From positions 1 through 25,636 of the IMG/VR virus record IMGVR_UViG_2199352024_000006: a DNA stretch of 25,636 nt, one strand, 5' to 3'. Position numbers and translations under genes: made by a program. Shown here one piece after another: positions 1 through 13,124 of this stretch. Source of the DNA: a virus. A model generated the notes under the pieces. The model did not search any database. It was not told the origin of the DNA and saw only the letters and a list, made by a program, of their open reading frames with translations. Within the stretch, counting starts at the first letter, position 1, and each line of letters starts with the position of its first letter.

Positions 1-19
1 GTCGCAGACCAAAGACCTT

Positions 20-400
20 TCAGACTTTGGACCCGCCCCCACCCGGTCCAGCGTTCCAGGGATGGCTCGCATCGATGGGCAAGCCATCGAGTCCGGCGCC
101 AGGCATTAGCCGACCGTGCTCCTCGCCCTGCTTCACGCGGTCGTGGCAGTCGCGGCAGAGGGCCTGCCAATTGGTCACATCGAAGAACAACTGTTCATTG
201 CCCTTGTGGGCTTTGATGTGGTCGACCACCGCGGCCGCGGTGGTCCGACCCTGACGCCGGCAATACTCGCAGAGCGGATGCTCAGCGAGGAACAGCGCCC
301 GGCCCTTGCGCCAACGTGCGGTGTGGTAGAGACGACGCCAAGGCCTATCGCCCGGGCCCGACCATGGGGGGGAAGTGGTCGGGCCCGGGTTATTTGCCAT
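20..400 (-). CDS. HNH endonuclease, first gene of the late operon
   Basis: A 126-residue protein with a compact HNH/zinc-finger nuclease fold. It shows CEYC (about residues 44-47), then VVDHI with the catalytic histidine, then an asparagine in TNWQAL and a second zinc pair in CRDCH. Proteins of this size and motif order lie immediately upstream of the small terminase gene in HK97-like phages, where HK97 gp74 helps terminase cut at cos. Here the gene ends 19 bases from the left edge, so the next gene is not visible, but terminase is the expected neighbour. It follows a predicted Q-dependent promoter and terminator. The start ATG has only a weak ribosome site (GAGCTG). The C-terminus is Gly/Pro-rich. 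The nuclease class is well supported; the packaging role is inferred from position. Confidence 0.88.
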   Translation of the reverse strand: MANNPGPTTSPPWSGPGDRPWRRLYHTARWRKGRALFLAEHPLCEYCRRQGRTTAAAVVDHIKAHKGNEQLFFDVTNWQALCRDCHDRVKQGEEHGRLMPGAGLDGLPIDASHPWNAGPGGGGSKV

Positions 401-490
401 TCGCTTTACAGCTCGCTCTCTCTACGGGGTGCATAGGTCGCCCGCACGCGAACCGGCCCTAGTGAATGGGGAGGTGTTGCCGGTGGGCGG

Positions 491-528
491 GCGATTTAAA
501 ACGAGAAAGCCCCGCGTCTGCGGGGCTT
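491..528 (-). terminator. Intrinsic terminator upstream of the HNH/late operon
   Basis: A perfect 9-bp stem, AAGCCCCGC, loop AGAC, GCGGGGCTT (507-528), is followed on the minus strand by a T-rich tail (TCTCGTTTTAAA). It lies between the Q-like gene and the HNH gene, downstream of a promoter candidate. That is the position of the lambda tR' terminator, which Q overrides. The remaining 401-490 stretch shows no gene or clear signal. Confidence 0.8.
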
Positions 529-553
529 GGGGATTTTCCTTCGGGGACGGTTC

Positions 554-572
554 GGGAACCCATCGGGTTCCC
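554..572. repeat. Perfect 8-bp inverted repeat in the late leader
   Basis: GGGAACCC ATC GGGTTCCC forms a perfect hairpin with a 3-base loop. It has no T-tract on either strand, so it is not itself a terminator. It sits in the leader RNA between the predicted late promoter and the terminator. It could be an RNA structure for pausing or antitermination, or a protein-binding site; the function is unknown. Confidence 0.6.
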
Positions 573-619
573 GTCGCCTTCTCTATGCGGAAGGGGCTTA
601 GCTCAAGTTGTTGGGTCAC

Positions 620-649
620 TTTATACACCAGACCCACTACATCTTGCAA
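620..649 (-). promoter_or_regulatory. Predicted late promoter (PR'-like) at the 3' end of the Q-like gene
   Basis: On the minus strand a -35 box TTGCAA (649-644) and a -10 box TATAAA (625-620) are separated by 18 bp. The -10 box overlaps the stop codon of the Q-like gene. Transcription would start near 613 and meet the terminator at 528-507 after about 85-105 nt. Promoter, short leader and terminator directly after a Q gene is the arrangement of lambda PR'-tR'. Predicted from sequence only. Confidence 0.5.
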
Positions 650-1058
650 TACCCGCCCAAATTGGCCGTCCACGGCGGATGAGCGTGACGTCCTGCGCAC
701 GCAACGATTCGGTGACCATCTCGAGGGCTCGCGCCCAATACGATCGGTACTGCTCGCGCGGCAGCTTGAACATGTCGCAGAGCGAGTGTCGCGACGCGCG
801 ATAGACGTAGAGCTTCTTCAGGAAGATCCGTGCGGCCTGGCAGCGCAAGGCCACGACTGCTCGCTCGACGATCTCCGCGTCCAGGCTATTGATCGCCTGG
901 GTTATCCGATCGCAGGCCTGCTCGCCTTCGCCGAGCCGTGGCGGCACGTAGCGATGTTCAACGCTCGCGCAATGGCCATTCGCCCCGCTCGAGACATGAG
1001 CCCAGCGGCCCCAATTGTCCATGCGCGCATTGAGCTGCGCGAACTGTCCCTCTGTCAT
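621..1058 (-). CDS. Q-like late antitermination protein (helix-turn-helix)
   Basis: A 145-residue protein that resembles the phage antitermination Q family (PF06530 type). An N-terminal NWGRW-type motif is followed by a His/Cys-containing stretch (residues ~20-40). The C-terminal half is helical with a sigma-region-4-like helix-turn-helix around VYRASRHSLCDMFKLPREQY. Such proteins bind near the late promoter and let RNA polymerase read through the downstream terminator. Context supports this: the gene follows the replication gene, ends on a promoter candidate with a terminator beyond it, and precedes the HNH/late operon. The start ATG has GGGGA at good spacing and also overlaps the stop of a tiny leader frame. 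Another early HTH regulator remains possible. Confidence 0.6.
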   Translation of the reverse strand: MTEGQFAQLNARMDNWGRWAHVSSGANGHCASVEHRYVPPRLGEGEQACDRITQAINSLDAEIVERAVVALRCQAARIFLKKLYVYRASRHSLCDMFKLPREQYRSYWARALEMVTESLRAQDVTLIRRGRPIWAGIARCSGSGV

Positions 1059-1075
1059 GTTTTTCCCCGTTTCAC
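1055..1075 (-). CDS. Six-codon leader frame coupled to the Q-like gene
   Basis: A perfect ribosome site AGGAGG (1089-1084) is 8 nt before a GTG that opens a six-residue frame (MKRGKT). Its TGA overlaps the ATG of the Q-like gene as ATGA. The strong ribosome site is 25 nt from the Q start, too far to serve it directly, so translational coupling through this mini-frame is plausible. Too short to prove as a gene. Confidence 0.35.
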   Translation of the reverse strand: MKRGKT

Positions 1076-1133
1076 TGTAAAAACCTCCTACCCGTAGTGC
1101 CTTCGCTGCCTTCGCCTCGCCTTCGCTCCTCTA

Positions 1134-1153
1134 TCTCTTTCTCTCTAAAGAGA
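1134..1153. repeat. AT-rich inverted repeat inside the iteron region
   Basis: TCTCTTT and AAAGAGA form a perfect 7-bp inverted repeat around CTCTCT. The surrounding 1126-1165 stretch is pyrimidine-rich and then purine-rich, and is AT-rich compared with the rest of the window. It could be an unwinding element of the putative origin, or a weak hairpin in the RNA leading into the Q-like gene. Confidence 0.4.
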
Positions 1154-1179
1154 AAAACATGAAGCGAATGACGCGAAGG

Positions 1180-1236
1180 CACGCGCGCGCGCGATCGGGC
1201 GTGTGCGTGCGCGCCCGCACATGTGTTACGCGCGCG
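1180..1236. other. Alternating purine-pyrimidine (CG/TG) tract with Z-DNA potential
   Basis: Between repeat copies four and five is a run of alternating CG and TG/CA steps, including (CG)-type runs at 1181-1192 and 1229-1236 and a TG-rich centre. No convincing protein is encoded here on either strand. Alternating CG/TG DNA favours left-handed helix under negative supercoiling. The function is unknown. Confidence 0.45.
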
Positions 1237-1305
1237 TAGAGAGCCTTCGCCTCCTTCGCGTGAGCGCAAGTCTTTGAATCATTGGACCGAAATAGGCGAA
1301 GGCAC

Positions 1306-3147
1306 TCATGGGATAGAGCCTTCGCCTGACCCTTCGCCAGCCTTCGCTTCGTTGTCGTAGGCCCAGTCTCGGAGCCTCGAACGGAACTCATGGATGTGCA
1401 GGCCGAGCGCGTCCTGCTCGGTTTTGCCACTAGGCGGCAGCCAATCCGACGGCAGGTACACAACGCCCTCGGTGATGCGCTCAATTGATGCGTCCCAGAC
1501 CCGATACTTTTTCCGGACTGTTGGCACGCATTTGCGCAACGACGATAAAAACACCGCCTCGCGCGCTGGGCTGCGCTCACCGCGCTCATCGCAGAATTTC
1601 CGATAGGCCCGATACGCGTCGAGCGTGGCGCACGGCGCGAACGGCACGGGCAGGTCGCCAGCCTTCCAGGCGACCTCGAAGCGATCGAACGATTCCGCCG
1701 AGGCCTCCATCAGGTCCGACTTCGCCTGCGTCATCGGCGGCTTCGTGTGCTCATTAAACGCGCCGAGATCGCGCGCGAGCAGCTGCTGAAATAAGCCCGC
1801 GGCGCCGCCGGCGTCGAGCTCGGCGGCCACCGCAGCGTAGAACTCGGCGGGCTTCTCCTCGCGCGGCGTGTAGAGCACGCACATGCGCCGGTCCTTGCGG
1901 CCGAGAGAGAGCGGCACGGTGAAATTCGAGAGGAAAATGAAGTTTGCGTGATTCGCCTCTTCGCGCAGCGGCAGATTCTTCTCGTCGACCTGCCAAGTCG
2001 CCTCGGAGATCCATTGCCGCAGCTGCCCCTCGGCGTGTTTCAGCTCGGAGCGACTGATGACCTCATTGCCGATGACCAGGAGCTTGCGCGAGCCCCATCC
2101 GTTGAAGCGGAAGAATTCGAGCTGCGCCTGACCAATCTCGGTGCAGTACTCGCCATAGATTTGGCGCAGGGCCTTGAATAGAAGATTCTTACCGGCGCCC
2201 GGGAATCCATGGAATAACAGCGCCGTCTGCATTTTCGCGCCGGGATGCTGCAGCGGGAACGCCAGCCAATCGAGGACCCAATCCGTCAGCGGCTTTTCAT
2301 CGCCGCGCCCGTCTTCGGTGCTGCAGAGATGCTCGAGCAGTTCGACCAGCTTCTCGCAGGGCGCCGTCGCCGGCTTGAGCGGAAGGCCCTTGTACATGTT
2401 GATTGTGCCAGCGCGTGCATCATTGCCAGGCTCGAAGACCAAGTCGCGAGCGTGTACCGTGCGCCGCACCGGATGCCCGAGCCATTTCTTGACGCGATCG
2501 CGTGCCGCGGCGGCGCGCAGGGGCGCCATGCCGATGATGTGCCCCTTCCGCTCGTCCCAGATCGTCTCGGTCCCATAAATTAGGACGTAGTGCTTGAGCA
2601 GATCGGGCAGGGTTGGCCGCAATTCATCGACATTTGCCGCCGCGGCCTCGCCCAGCACCTCGAGCGCAAGTGCGCCGAGGCGTTCCTCGGCCAGCTCGAG
2701 CAATTCCTCGCTCGAGCGCCCTTCCGGATTGAACCCCATCGCCGTAAGCGCACGGCCGAGCGCAATGAATCGGCGTAGCCGTGAACGCTCGACGACCACC
2801 TCGCCGTAGCGAACGACGTTCTGAAGACTGTAGGTTTCGGAGGCGAGAAGACCGATATAGCTCGAGCCGCCCGCCGGCTCGAGCAAGCCGCGATCGCGCA
2901 AATACTCGGCGATCGTCAGGAAATCACAAGCCTTACCGCCTTTGATTATTTCCTGAATGGCCCGGTAGATGACCTGATGCTCGGAGCGGTAGAAATCGTC
3001 GGCGAGCAGCGGCAACTGCTCGAGCTCGCTCAGCGCCCCATTGTTGAGCAGTAGGCCGCCGAGGACCGATTGTTCAGCCTCGACGGAGTGCGGCGGCTCC
3101 TTGAATCCCTTGCGGGCGGGCGCCCCGCGGCTCGTCTCGGCGGCCAT
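1306..3147 (-). CDS. Replication protein: DnaB N-terminal domain fused to DUF5906 (SF3-type) helicase
   Basis: A 613-residue protein. Residues ~17-125 match the DnaB-like helicase N-terminal domain (PPHSVEAEQSVLGGLLL, then the DFLTIAEYL region), which normally recruits primase. Residues ~180-480 match the DUF5906/D5-like helicase of phage primases: WVLDWLAFPLQHPGAKM, Walker A GFPGAGKN at 314-321, a Walker-B-like KLLVIGNEV at ~355-363, and an NF sensor near NFIFLSNF. Asn in place of Ser/Thr at the end of Walker A is usual in that family. The start is the ATG whose A overlaps the preceding stop (TGATG); the frame stays open a further 63 codons upstream, but that part is not protein-like. The C-terminus is low-complexity (GEGSGEGS) because three iteron copies are read through. 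Likely the replication initiator helicase. Confidence 0.85.
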   Translation of the reverse strand: MAAETSRGAPARKGFKEPPHSVEAEQSVLGGLLLNNGALSELEQLPLLADDFYRSEHQVIYRAIQEIIKGGKACDFLTIAEYLRDRGLLEPAGGSSYIGLLASETYSLQNVVRYGEVVVERSRLRRFIALGRALTAMGFNPEGRSSEELLELAEERLGALALEVLGEAAAANVDELRPTLPDLLKHYVLIYGTETIWDERKGHIIGMAPLRAAAARDRVKKWLGHPVRRTVHARDLVFEPGNDARAGTINMYKGLPLKPATAPCEKLVELLEHLCSTEDGRGDEKPLTDWVLDWLAFPLQHPGAKMQTALLFHGFPGAGKNLLFKALRQIYGEYCTEIGQAQLEFFRFNGWGSRKLLVIGNEVISRSELKHAEGQLRQWISEATWQVDEKNLPLREEANHANFIFLSNFTVPLSLGRKDRRMCVLYTPREEKPAEFYAAVAAELDAGGAAGLFQQLLARDLGAFNEHTKPPMTQAKSDLMEASAESFDRFEVAWKAGDLPVPFAPCATLDAYRAYRKFCDERGERSPAREAVFLSSLRKCVPTVRKKYRVWDASIERITEGVVYLPSDWLPPSGKTEQDALGLHIHEFRSRLRDWAYDNEAKAGEGSGEGSIP

Positions 3148-3503
3148 CAGGGACGCAACGCATTCAACGCGCGCAACAGCCGGCGATAACCGCCCTCGCC
3201 TCGCTTGTCGCGCACGTGACGCAAATGCGTAGCGCGATCGGCCGAGCTCAATGCAGCGGCCCAGCGCGCCTCGAACTGCAGGAGCCGTGCGTGATTGGCA
3301 CAGACGTCGGCCCACCATTCGGCGTCGGAGGCCCATTGCCGGAGGCCGCCAGGCGCAGGCGTAGCCACCGAATCCTCAACAATGAAAGCTCGATCTCGGC
3401 GGTCACCGTGGACTCGCGCAGGATCTCGAGCGTCTGCTCCGTTCGGCGATGTCTCCGGGTCAGGAGCCAGATCTGGAAAGAGAGCCAGTGCCTGTTGAGC
3501 CAT
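3147..3503 (-). CDS. Small early protein upstream of the helicase, start uncertain
   Basis: At most 118 residues, ending in a TGATG overlap with the helicase start, so it is probably co-translated with it. The C-terminal half (LRQWASDAEWWADV onward, helical and Arg-rich) has the GC-rich third positions expected here. The first ~50 residues do not; in that stretch the coding signal lies in the overlapping frame of the 3248-3511 gene. A GTG at 3365 preceded by GAGGA may be the true start, giving about 72 residues. Alternatively the two frames form one gene broken by a -1 shift near 3350. No family recognised. Confidence 0.55.
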   Translation of the reverse strand: MAQQALALFPDLAPDPETSPNGADARDPARVHGDRRDRAFIVEDSVATPAPGGLRQWASDAEWWADVCANHARLLQFEARWAAALSSADRATHLRHVRDKRGEGGYRRLLRALNALRP

Positions 3504-3511
3504 GCGATCAT
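3248..3511 (-). CDS. Small early protein overlapping its downstream neighbour
   Basis: An 87-residue frame starting at an ATG with GGAAGG at 7 nt. The first ~57 residues are basic and leucine/isoleucine-rich and form a likely helix (IWLLTRRHRRTEQTLEILRE onward), with strong third-position GC. Small phage proteins with a similar hydrophobic start and charged helix are common in early regions. The C-terminal ~30 residues (Gly/Pro/Ser-rich) look unselected and overlap the well-coded part of the next frame. It may end early in function, or be the front half of a frameshifted gene. No function assigned. Confidence 0.5.
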   Translation of the reverse strand: MIAWLNRHWLSFQIWLLTRRHRRTEQTLEILRESTVTAEIELSLLRIRWLRLRLAASGNGPPTPNGGPTSVPITHGSCSSRRAGPLH

Positions 3512-3539
3512 CGCCTCCCCTTCCGAGATTGAGATTCAG

Positions 3540-3758
3540 ATGAGCGCAGACGCGGAGACGCTGAATGTCGTGCAACAGGTTTTGCGCGGCGTGGTCGTTT
3601 CATTGGCGATGCACCGCCAGGACGACATGGCCAGACTTGGGAGCGCTTTAGAAGCTTTCGCCATTCATCAGCGGTTAGAGCCAATGGCGAAGCAGATGCT
3701 GCTCGACCTCGCGATGGGATGTAATGTCCTCGGCCGCGCGAAGACAAATCCGTCCTGA
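3540..3758 (+). CDS. Small conserved-looking protein, antisense to the early operon
   Basis: A 72-residue frame on the plus strand (MSADAETLNVVQQVLRG onward), helical with regular hydrophobic spacing. By hand count the codon positions have about 64%, 39% and 72% GC, the pattern expected for real coding DNA in a genome of this composition. The opposite-strand frame over the same DNA has the reverse pattern. It is divergent from the gene starting at 3511 (28 bp apart) and convergent with the gene ending at 3810. The ribosome site is weak. Function unknown. Confidence 0.5.
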   Translation: MSADAETLNVVQQVLRGVVVSLAMHRQDDMARLGSALEAFAIHQRLEPMAKQMLLDLAMGCNVLGRAKTNPS

Positions 3759-5209: not shown

Positions 5210-5473
5210 ATGGCCAATGCAACTCTCGAATCCGCGTCGAACTGGCTAGTCCGGAAGACCGATGCCCGTCGCGCTACGCGCATCGCCCAGGAAGATATCG
5301 ATGCGATGCAGCGCAAATTCGCGCTCACCGATGAGGAATCTCAAGAGGCCCACGGTTGGGCCGAGGACGAGCTCGCCGACCGGTGTGATGACCATCCCCT
5401 CGATATCGCCGCGATGCAGGATCGCGAGGATCAATGCGCAGGGATTGATACGCCATGGTGGAGACACCCATGA
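5210..5473 (+). CDS. Unknown small acidic protein, first gene of the plus-strand operon
   Basis: An 87-residue protein, start chosen at the ATG preceded by GGGAG at 5 nt (an upstream in-frame GTG at 5198 lacks such a site). It is helical, moderately acidic and rich in Asp, Glu and Ala, with no membrane segment or recognised motif. It ends in an ATGA overlap with the ParB-like gene. Being first behind the repressible promoter and coupled to the ParB-like gene, it may act with it, but no function is recognised. Confidence 0.65.
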   Translation: MANATLESASNWLVRKTDARRATRIAQEDIDAMQRKFALTDEESQEAHGWAEDELADRCDDHPLDIAAMQDREDQCAGIDTPWWRHP

Positions 5474-6696
5474 GCGGAGTTTCGCCTGCGAAAGTCGCCC
5501 CCGCCCCAGTCGCCCAGCTGCTCGCCCTCGACCAGCTGATTGCCGACCCCAATCAACCCCGCAAGACCTTCGACCAGGCCGCGCTCGAGGATCTGGCCGC
5601 CAGCCTCCGCGCTGAAGGGTTCCTGCAGCCGATCCTCGTCAAACCAAATGGCAAGGGCCACATCATCGTCGACGGCGAGCGGCGCTACCGCGCCGCCAAG
5701 CTGCTCGGCCTCAAAGAGGTCCCGGTCTTGGTCCGGGCGGATCTCAAGGACCAGGACGTCACGGCGCAGCAGCTCGTCGCCAACCTGCAGCGCGCCGACC
5801 TGACCCTGGCCGAGCAATGCGATGCGGTGGCCAAGCTGGTCAAGCGCCTGAACGGGCCCGAGGGCAAGGGCGGCCAGACCCGCGCCGCCGCTCAGCTCGG
5901 CAAGAGCGAAGCTTGGGTCAGCAAACGGGCCGGCATCATTGCCGCACCGGTCGAAGTGCAGCTGCTGGTCAAGAAAGGCTCGATCACGGACGTCGAGATC
6001 GCGGCGGGCTTGACCGAACTGCATCAGGTCGCGCCGAAAAAGAACTTCGACAGGATGGTCGAGCAGGTCCGTGCCGGCGAGGACAATTATGGCGCCAGCA
6101 TCACGCGCGAATATGTCCGCGACGAGGTCGCCGACGCCAAGGATGAGAAAAAACGCCGCGAGGCCGCAGCCGCCCAGGCCGAAAAGGATCGCAAGGCCGG
6201 CAAGAAGGCCAAGCCGGTCGACAGCTGGAAGGCCCAGCAAGCGCGCGAGCAGGCGCAGAAAAAAACGCGCATCGAGCGCTGGCAGGCGATCGGCCCGGTC
6301 ATCAAGAAATTCAGCGAGCTGCTCGCGAAGGCCACCGGGCTCGTAATCGACGGGCCCAGCTATGACGGCTACAGCGTCCCGATTCCGCCGGCCTCGATCG
6401 ACGGCCACAAGTTCACCTGGCGCTTCAGCGGATCCGGCGCGCTGGCCAAGCAGATTGCTTCCAAAACCGGCCTAACGCTCAAGCTCGAGCATTCCCTCCA
6501 GAACCTGACGCCCGATCAGGCCGCGAAGATCGAGCAGGTGCTGGGCCGCAAGCTTGAATGGCGAGTCGGCTGGGGCCGCCATGAACTGACCGGCAAACAA
6601 CTCGTCGCCGCCGCGGCGAAGGCCGGCACGAAGCTGCAGATCCCGGAGCTGCCCAAAGCCCAGGCCAAGCCCACGCCGAAAAAGGCGGCGAAGTGA
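5470..6696 (+). CDS. ParB/Srx-domain DNA-binding protein
   Basis: A 408-residue protein with a typical ParB N-terminal domain: DPNQPRK (about 25-31), then the CTP-binding box GERRYRA (69-75), then a helix-turn-helix AAAQLGKSEAWVSKR (~139-153). A Lys/Arg/Glu/Ala-rich helical linker follows (~205-260), then a C-terminal domain not recognised. ParB proteins bind parS-type sites and slide as CTP-dependent clamps; with ParA they segregate replicons, and alone they often act as regulators. No ParA gene is seen in the window. The start is the ATG in the ATGA overlap, with GGAGA at about 6 nt. Confidence 0.85.
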   Translation: MSGVSPAKVAPAPVAQLLALDQLIADPNQPRKTFDQAALEDLAASLRAEGFLQPILVKPNGKGHIIVDGERRYRAAKLLGLKEVPVLVRADLKDQDVTAQQLVANLQRADLTLAEQCDAVAKLVKRLNGPEGKGGQTRAAAQLGKSEAWVSKRAGIIAAPVEVQLLVKKGSITDVEIAAGLTELHQVAPKKNFDRMVEQVRAGEDNYGASITREYVRDEVADAKDEKKRREAAAAQAEKDRKAGKKAKPVDSWKAQQAREQAQKKTRIERWQAIGPVIKKFSELLAKATGLVIDGPSYDGYSVPIPPASIDGHKFTWRFSGSGALAKQIASKTGLTLKLEHSLQNLTPDQAAKIEQVLGRKLEWRVGWGRHELTGKQLVAAAAKAGTKLQIPELPKAQAKPTPKKAAK

Positions 6697-11564: not shown

Positions 11565-13124
11565 ATGCGAACGGCCGCCTATGCCCGCTTCAGTTCTGAT
11601 CAACAGCGCGCCGCGTCGATCGATGACCAGCTGCGAAATATAGGCGAGCGCTGCAGGCGCGAGGGCTGGCCAGCACCGCGGGCCTTCGAGGATCGCGCGA
11701 TGACAGGCGCGCGCCACGATCGTCCGGGCTACCAGGCGATGCTTGCGGCGGCCGAGGCCCGGGAATTTGAAGTCCTGCTGGTTGACGATCTCTCCCGCCT
11801 TTCTCGCGACGAACTCGAAAGCAAGCGCGCCATTCGCGCCCTGCGCTTCTGGGGCATCCGCGTCATTGGCGTATCCGATGGCATCGACACGGATCGGAAG
11901 GGGCACAAGATCGAAGTCGGCCTGCGCGGCCTGATGAGCGAACTTTATCTCGACGAACTCGCGGACAAGACCCATCGCGGGCTGATGGGGCGAGCATTGG
12001 CCGGCAGCTCAGCGGGCGGGCTGCCGTTCGGATATCGCGTCGCCGGCGCCGGGCAGCGCGTCATTGACCAGGCGCAGGCGGCCGTGGTCTGCCTCATCTT
12101 CACGCGTTACGCATCCGGGCAGACACCTCGAGCGATCGCCGCGGATCTCAATCGCCTCGGCACGCCAGGGCCTCGAGGCGGCAGCTGGTGCATGACGGCG
12201 ATCTACGGCGACTGGCGGCGCGGCATCGGGATCCTCGCGAACCCAATCTATCGCGGGCAGATGATCTGGAATCGCTCGAAATGGAGCAAGGATCCATTCA
12301 CCGGCCGCCGGCGGCGCAGCGAAAAGCCGGAGTCGGAATGGGTCAGCGTCGAGCATCCCGAGCTGCGGATCATTGATGAGGATCTCTGGAACGCGGTGCA
12401 GCGACGGTTCGCCGAAGTGAACGCGCGCACTCAAGGCCGCAGGAATCCGGGCGCGAAGCCGAAATATCTATTAAGCGGCCTCATGAAATGCGGCACCTGC
12501 GGCGCGTCGATGGTTGTCGTCGATCGGTACCGCTACGGCTGTGCGGCGAACAAAGACCGCGGCGCTGATGTTTGCGACAACGGGATCCGCGTCGCTCGAG
12601 CTCGAGCTGAGGCTGTTCTCCTGCAGGCGGTTCGCGAGGAATTGCTCAGCGCCGAGGCCTATCGCGCATTCGAAGCCGAGGCCAGGCGCGTGCTGCGCGA
12701 GACAATTCCGGACCCAAAGGCGGCCCATCGGGAGCTCGCCGAGGCCCAGCGGATTCGCGCCAACCTGGTCGAGAACATCCGACAGGGCGTCGTCTCGCCG
12801 ACCGTGCGAGCCGAGCTATTCAAGGCGGAGGGCGCCGTAGCCACCGCCCAGGCCGCGCTCGAGCAGCTACAGCGCTGCGGGCCGACCCAGCTGCTCCCCC
12901 GCGCCCGGGAGACGTGGGAGCGCCTGGTGCAGCAATTAGACCGGGTTGACGACGTCGACGGCGCCAGGGCGGCGCTGCGGGAGCTGTTGGGCGAGATCCG
13001 GCTGGTACCGGAAGCCGGGCGCCTGGTGGCCGAAATGGCCGGCGGCGTCAGTGAGATTGGGATGGTAGCGGGGGCAGGCTATGGACTCAATCTCATCGCC
13101 AGCCCGCTACGGCTACCGCTATAA
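11565..13124 (+). CDS. int: Large serine recombinase (phage integrase)
   Basis: A 519-residue protein. The resolvase domain opens with YARFSSDQQ (Tyr6, Arg8, catalytic Ser10) and contains DDLSRLSRD. A recombinase domain follows (GLPFGYRV, then ANPIYRGQMIWNR), then a zinc ribbon (CGTCG with a second Cys pair in the YGCAANK/DVCDNG region), and a C-terminal helical, partly coiled-coil part. Such enzymes join attP and attB without host factors and need a directionality factor for excision. The length is normal for the class. It is the last gene of the plus-strand operon and ends 40 bp before a strong terminator. No clear ribosome site precedes the ATG. Confidence 0.93.
   Translation: MRTAAYARFSSDQQRAASIDDQLRNIGERCRREGWPAPRAFEDRAMTGARHDRPGYQAMLAAAEAREFEVLLVDDLSRLSRDELESKRAIRALRFWGIRVIGVSDGIDTDRKGHKIEVGLRGLMSELYLDELADKTHRGLMGRALAGSSAGGLPFGYRVAGAGQRVIDQAQAAVVCLIFTRYASGQTPRAIAADLNRLGTPGPRGGSWCMTAIYGDWRRGIGILANPIYRGQMIWNRSKWSKDPFTGRRRRSEKPESEWVSVEHPELRIIDEDLWNAVQRRFAEVNARTQGRRNPGAKPKYLLSGLMKCGTCGASMVVVDRYRYGCAANKDRGADVCDNGIRVARARAEAVLLQAVREELLSAEAYRAFEAEARRVLRETIPDPKAAHRELAEAQRIRANLVENIRQGVVSPTVRAELFKAEGAVATAQAALEQLQRCGPTQLLPRARETWERLVQQLDRVDDVDGARAALRELLGEIRLVPEAGRLVAEMAGGVSEIGMVAGAGYGLNLIASPLRLPL

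Follow-up and report, generated by a model that had tools for sequence, protein, structure and literature searches.

Mirrored iterons directly 3' of a DnaB-N/DUF5906 helicase gene: a probable replication origin of a tailed phage

Origins beside SF3 helicase genes

An arrangement in which iterons directly follow the gene of an SF3 initiator helicase on its 3' side is already known from the crr of P4 and from the origins of SaPI and PICI elements. The crr of P4 (4291-4590 in our locus L287) consists of two direct 120-bp repeats and contains ten annotated ori type-1 iterons of 7-8 bp in both orientations, which start 46 bp 3' of the stop of alpha; a second iteron cluster lies approximately 4.5 kb away at ori. 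P4 needs both crr and the separate ori. The product of alpha is a primase-helicase with Toprim and zinc primase domains that also matches DUF5906, and its C-terminal winged helix binds the ori repeats (PMC4234260). The iterons of SaPI lie immediately 3' of the rep gene and are recognized by the C-terminal domain of Rep (PMC7581432), and this reading has been described as involving two hexamers. Gram-negative PICIs follow the same plan, and a rep-ori replicon drove plasmid replication (PMC6092414). Published descriptions of SaPI and PICI origins place an A+T-rich region between two iteron sets. Related arrangements include the putative origin of SCCmec, in which residues 400-538 of the helicase Cch2 bind direct repeats (AAGTG) just past the gene, and the origin of plasmid pRN1, in which an essential cis element lies directly 3' of the gene for ORF904, an SF3 helicase with a C-terminal winged helix.

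Here we analysed a window of 25,636 nucleotides of viral DNA (IMG/VR record IMGVR_UViG_2199352024_000006, positions 1 to 25,636). Genes for tail proteins, for head closure and for a serine integrase identify the window as part of the genome of a tailed phage that was probably temperate. The probable integrase is a large serine recombinase (11565-13124, plus strand; phrog_95, 3e-81). An HTH repressor-like protein is also encoded, as is a ParB-N/KorB-like protein (5455-6696, plus strand), which lies on the strand opposite to the replication and structural genes. We conclude that DNA replication of this phage very likely starts at 1100-1347, or that this segment is its main replication element in cis.

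The CCTTCGC array and its helicase

The original prediction placed ten copies of CCTTCGC at 1100-1347, in three groups with two copies inverted, and proposed that three copies shape the GEGSGEGS tail at the helicase 3' end. A recount of exact positions confirmed the number and the place, and the positions of the exact copies agree with the grouping and the two inversions. Three copies do lie within the helicase 3' end and encode its GEGSGEGS tail, and the other seven of the ten are non-coding. An eleventh site with one mismatch (GCGAATG) is located at 1164-1170. On the minus strand, the helicase gene (3150-1306) is followed by the array and then by a Q-like gene (1058-621), such that the array fills the gap between the DnaB-N/DUF5906 (SF3-type) helicase gene and the Q-like antiterminator gene. 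The features are as follows.

1341..1347, plus strand: iteron 1, proximal half, inside helicase CDS; exact CCTTCGC
1331..1337, plus strand: iteron 2, proximal half, inside helicase CDS; exact CCTTCGC
1319..1325, plus strand: iteron 3, proximal half, inside helicase CDS; exact CCTTCGC
1296..1302, minus strand: iteron 4, inverted, proximal half; exact CCTTCGC
1253..1259, plus strand: iteron 5, proximal half; exact CCTTCGC
1244..1250, plus strand: iteron 6, proximal half; exact CCTTCGC
1180..1243, no strand: central core between half-arrays, 64 bp; 16-nt alternating run at 1199-1214
1173..1179, minus strand: iteron 7, distal half, inner group; exact CCTTCGC
1164..1170, minus strand: degenerate iteron 8, distal half, inner group; GCGAATG, at a distance of 9 bp from iteron 7 that relatives share
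1127..1163, no strand: A+T-rich spacer, candidate unwinding element; GC 0.32
1120..1126, plus strand: iteron 9, distal half, outer group; exact CCTTCGC
1109..1115, plus strand: iteron 10, distal half, outer group; exact CCTTCGC
1100..1106, plus strand: iteron 11, distal half, outer group; exact CCTTCGC
1306..3150, minus strand: putative initiator helicase, 614 aa, with DnaB N-terminal domain, DUF5906 SF3-type motor and predicted C-terminal winged helix; Pfam, AF2
2788..3099, minus strand: DnaB-like N-terminal domain, helicase residues 18-121; Pfam
1336..1692, minus strand: C-terminal domain with predicted winged helix (residues 487-605), candidate reader of the iterons; AF2, weak RFX5 similarity, co-divergence
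621..1058, minus strand: Q-like antitermination gene, neighbour downstream of the putative origin and not part of it; phrog_79, 4.1e-6

Consistent with a specific cluster, the k-mer enrichment that had been proposed as a check bore out the array: CCTTCGC occurs 23 times in the whole window compared with 9.1 +/- 3.2 expected, and none of 100 shuffles reached 23. It forms the strongest 7-mer cluster of the window (10 copies in 250 bp), other 7-mers having at most 8 non-overlapping copies per 250 bp and the runner-up being the overlapping CGAAGGC; in 60 first-order Markov-resampled windows, the best cluster of any 7-mer had 4 or 5 copies. GC skew, also proposed as a check, was flat across the window, with no switch at the array, and was uninformative about the origin. 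An Rfam search of 1-3600 found nothing, and the only matches from a nucleotide search of phage records were short, falling in an HNH endonuclease and close to the 5' end of the helicase gene. CCTTCGC also clusters in other viral contigs; these clusters resemble low-complexity tandem repeats and are probably coding, and we rejected them as homologous arrays.

In Pfam, the helicase matches DnaB (5.6e-26) and DUF5906 (1.3e-13). Its best PDB match, by the fold of its AF2 model (pLDDT 80; 2e-19) and by sequence (1.3e-33), is the C-terminal region of NrS-1 polymerase, which has an N-terminal Prim/Pol whereas the window helicase has DnaB-N; further fold matches were to ASFV PrimPol, followed by SaPI5 Rep (1.3e-8) and the poxvirus D5/E5 helicases. 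These Pfam, PDB sequence and fold matches place the protein in the DUF5906/D5/VapE-like SF3 group, and its profile aligns with P4 alpha through the motor into the C terminus (hhalign E 1.2e-4, probability 55%). DnaB-N stands in place of the primase modules that are usual in relatives: among 61 relatives, one had a fusion of DnaB-N to a DUF5906 SF3-type motor, and most of the rest had Toprim or Prim-Pol domains. Searches of phage and plasmid records gave no match covering 80% or more of the helicase, single-sequence searches of viral and genome contigs returned no close relatives of it, and the Q-like protein had no tblastn match in phage records.

The C-terminal piece of the helicase (AF2 pLDDT 88.5) has the predicted order H-E-H-H-E-E-H, which is that of a winged helix. 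Foldseek gave no match to this piece with E below 0.001, recovering a weak match to RFX5 only and not the origin-binding domain of P4. Because the structural matches are weak, the winged helix is likely rather than proven.

Placement and geometry in relatives

A profile search of viral contigs and bacterial genomes added 160 loci, and we scored 164 loci (the window, phages and profile-search loci) over 500 bp around the helicase stop, [stop-120, stop+380]. In a k-mer scan that includes two-letter repeats such as ACCCAACA, an 8-mer occurred at least four times at the helicase stop in 141 of 164 loci, compared with 36 of 3,948 control windows, and at least five times in 119 of 164 loci, compared with 9 of 3,948 other windows. 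Across loci, the sites begin sharply at the helicase stop and end approximately 350 bp later; the window is atypical in that three of its copies precede the stop. The letters of the iteron are lineage-specific (CCCTGCACA, CCCAACACA and GCGTAAC among others). Five phages with related helicases have a short word repeated after the helicase stop, mostly a different word; the iteron is CCCAACACA in pAN and Meadow, TCAGACA in H4907, CCCTGCAC in Mcat5 and CCCGCACA in S1. The complete phage genomes of pAN, S1 and H4907 have one cluster each. The constant neighbour of the array is the helicase gene, whereas the next gene varies and may encode a Q-like or other regulator, a terminase small subunit or a protein of unknown function.

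Fewer than four copies were found in 23 of the 164 loci, some of which have degenerate arrays. In eight loci with related helicases (L138, L142, L145, L146, L161, L174, L213 and L237), no array of exact repeats stands out clearly 3' of the helicase gene. Possible explanations for loci without a clear array are that they may have degenerate arrays, another place for the origin or limits of assembly.

We compared the layout in 63 loci, which have less than 75% mutual protein identity except for S1, pAN and Meadow, added afterwards without this filter; the loci are not fully independent. A script set halves, gap and spacers by rule, dividing each array at its largest gap and accepting sites with one mismatch. 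Six was the modal site count in each half (28 of 63 and 26 of 63 loci), and the two halves had opposite majority orientation, as in a mirror, in 55 of 63 loci. The window has 6 + 5 sites, 11 rather than 12. Its proximal half, with spacings of 10, 12, 23, 43 and 9, is closely matched by that of L140 (9, 12, 21, 44 and 9), which has the same orientation pattern and a different iteron, GCCTAGA. The helical phasing suggested originally was supported by this comparison: same-orientation distances inside the half-arrays of the 63 loci were most strongly periodic at 10.5-11 bp (vector length 0.43-0.49, compared with 0.07-0.22 at 9-9.75 bp).

The gap between the halves (median 78 bp across the 63 loci; GC 0.73 in the window) is marked by alternation of purines and pyrimidines. 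The longest strictly alternating run of the whole window, 16 nt, falls within the core at 1199-1214. Among the 63 loci, 81% have an alternating run of at least 12 nt in the gap, compared with 3% of random windows and 1.5% of downstream control windows. In 53 of 63 loci, the window included, the longest alternating run of the entire locus falls within the gap or abuts it, even though gaps make up 1.3% of the sequence, and in 48 of 63 loci the gap run exceeds shuffles of its own composition at p<=0.01. Runs of up to 35 nt occur in gaps of loci L127-L286 (for example, L134, L139 and L240). Because the core runs differ in their letters, alternation itself seems to be kept. The distal half, for its part, often holds an A+T-rich spacer that separates inner from outer sites. 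Only 0.016% of 37-nt windows have a GC content as low as that of the spacer at 1127-1163. Distal spacers of at least 30 nt have a mean GC content 20 points below that of the locus, and 26 of 36 are more than 10 points below it, compared with 12% of background windows.

Similarity between iterons followed similarity between helicase C termini after helicase-core similarity was removed (partial Mantel r=0.24, permutation p=0.0005, 58 loci), in a test that removes shared ancestry incompletely. This co-divergence was maximal at helicase residues 540-580. The helicase is the likely reader of the CCTTCGC sites, and its predicted C-terminal winged helix is the candidate reading domain.

A probable variant origin and its alternatives

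The window shares with P4 crr and the SaPI/PICI origins a repeat cluster 3' of the helicase gene, a helicase of the SF3 group and two iteron sets. Similar to crr, its 7-bp sites occur in both orientations just 3' of a DUF5906 helicase gene. By contrast, the window has a single, mirrored cluster, and neither crr nor ori of P4 has an alternating core (longest run 7 nt in both); in place of the primase domains of alpha, the window helicase has DnaB-N. The locus is not a P4 crr proper, as the window, itself a fragment, has neither two 120-bp direct repeats nor a second iteron cluster. Similar to SaPI and PICI, the iterons lie directly 3' of an SF3-type rep gene and would be read by a C-terminal domain. 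Those elements are satellites, whereas the phages here are helper-independent, and the A+T-rich region is found not between the sets but inside the distal set, with the alternating core at the centre. SCCmec Cch2 resembles the window in the binding of repeats just past the gene, but its repeats are of 5 nt and the element and helicase subgroup are others; the pRN1 element is a stem-loop without iterons. An origin of the lambda O type, with iterons inside the initiator gene and a separate DnaB-loading protein, was rejected: the array lies 3' of the helicase gene, with only three copies inside it. Because placement, helicase group and two-set layout agree, whereas the A+T position and the core differ, we infer from these sequence comparisons that the array belongs with the initiator-binding origins of P4, SaPI and PICI, as a variant that would work in a similar way.

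The alternative that survives best, although we consider it improbable, is an accessory element similar to P4 crr, bound by the helicase and needed for or controlling replication (copy control, origin pairing), with the strands opened elsewhere. This would fit P4, in which crr sits 3' of alpha and the same iterons recur at the separate ori, and a second replication element could be missing here because the window is a fragment. However, the window and each of the three complete relatives have one cluster, the array includes an A+T-rich spacer and a core, which an array for binding alone would lack, and the same position in SaPI/PICI is the origin. Operators of a transcription factor controlling a late or Q transcription unit are a very unlikely reading: the array lies just upstream of the Q-like gene and the window encodes the HTH repressor-like protein, but the helicase rather than the following gene is the constant neighbour, site sequence tracks the helicase C terminus, and no sigma-70-like promoter was found at 500-1500, a stretch that also showed no terminator pattern. 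We give hardly any credence to a centromere-like array for the ParB/KorB-like protein of 5455-6696, despite its being encoded in the window, as the CCTTCGC site is non-palindromic and pAN, S1 and H4907 keep the layout with no ParB annotated. A functionless coding or low-complexity repeat, as CCTTCGC clusters elsewhere appear to be, is extremely improbable given the non-coding and inverted copies and the place and layout kept in relatives with other sequences.

For the preferred reading as an origin, the neighbouring helicase would be its own initiator, with its C-terminal winged helix reading the CCTTCGC sites. Two oppositely oriented helicase rings would probably form, one on each half-array, as suggested by the site count, the mirror geometry and the two-hexamer reading by SaPI Rep. 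Judging from composition, the rings may melt the 37-bp A+T-rich spacer, and the core, which is prone to form left-handed (Z) DNA, might, more speculatively, absorb negative supercoiling and aid melting. By analogy with general DnaB biology, the DnaB N-terminal domain may recruit the host DnaG primase. A broader and more tentative proposal, which we regard as possible, is a tailed-phage origin class that fixes geometry and not letters: mirrored sets of approximately six sites, one site per subunit of two opposed rings, an alternation-selected core and iterons that change together with the wing, realized here by a self-loading DnaB/SF3 hybrid ring that calls the host primase.

These results favour the earlier suggestion of an origin or multi-site binding region, because an array with the same place and geometry, and another iteron sequence, is present in most relatives, as the proposed comparison had called for. 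The claim that the array belongs to no known iteron type held in part: CCTTCGC as an iteron was not found in the literature searched, but its arrangement is that of P4 crr and the SaPI/PICI origins. Our literature search, which covered few subscription journals, turned up no paper that describes such an origin for phages with DUF5906. Relative to that literature, the new elements are the breadth in tailed phages, the mirrored halves under changing sequence, the Z-prone alternating core and the DnaB-N helicase.

Most of the phages and prophages that we examined have a very similar array, and the many lineage-specific pairs of iteron and reader domain offer material from which a recognition code could be derived. 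With a core in which alternation is conserved without conservation of sequence, a role of Z-prone DNA in opening the origin could be tested directly. The DnaB-N/SF3 hybrid points to a way in which initiator helicases can manage without a primase of their own.
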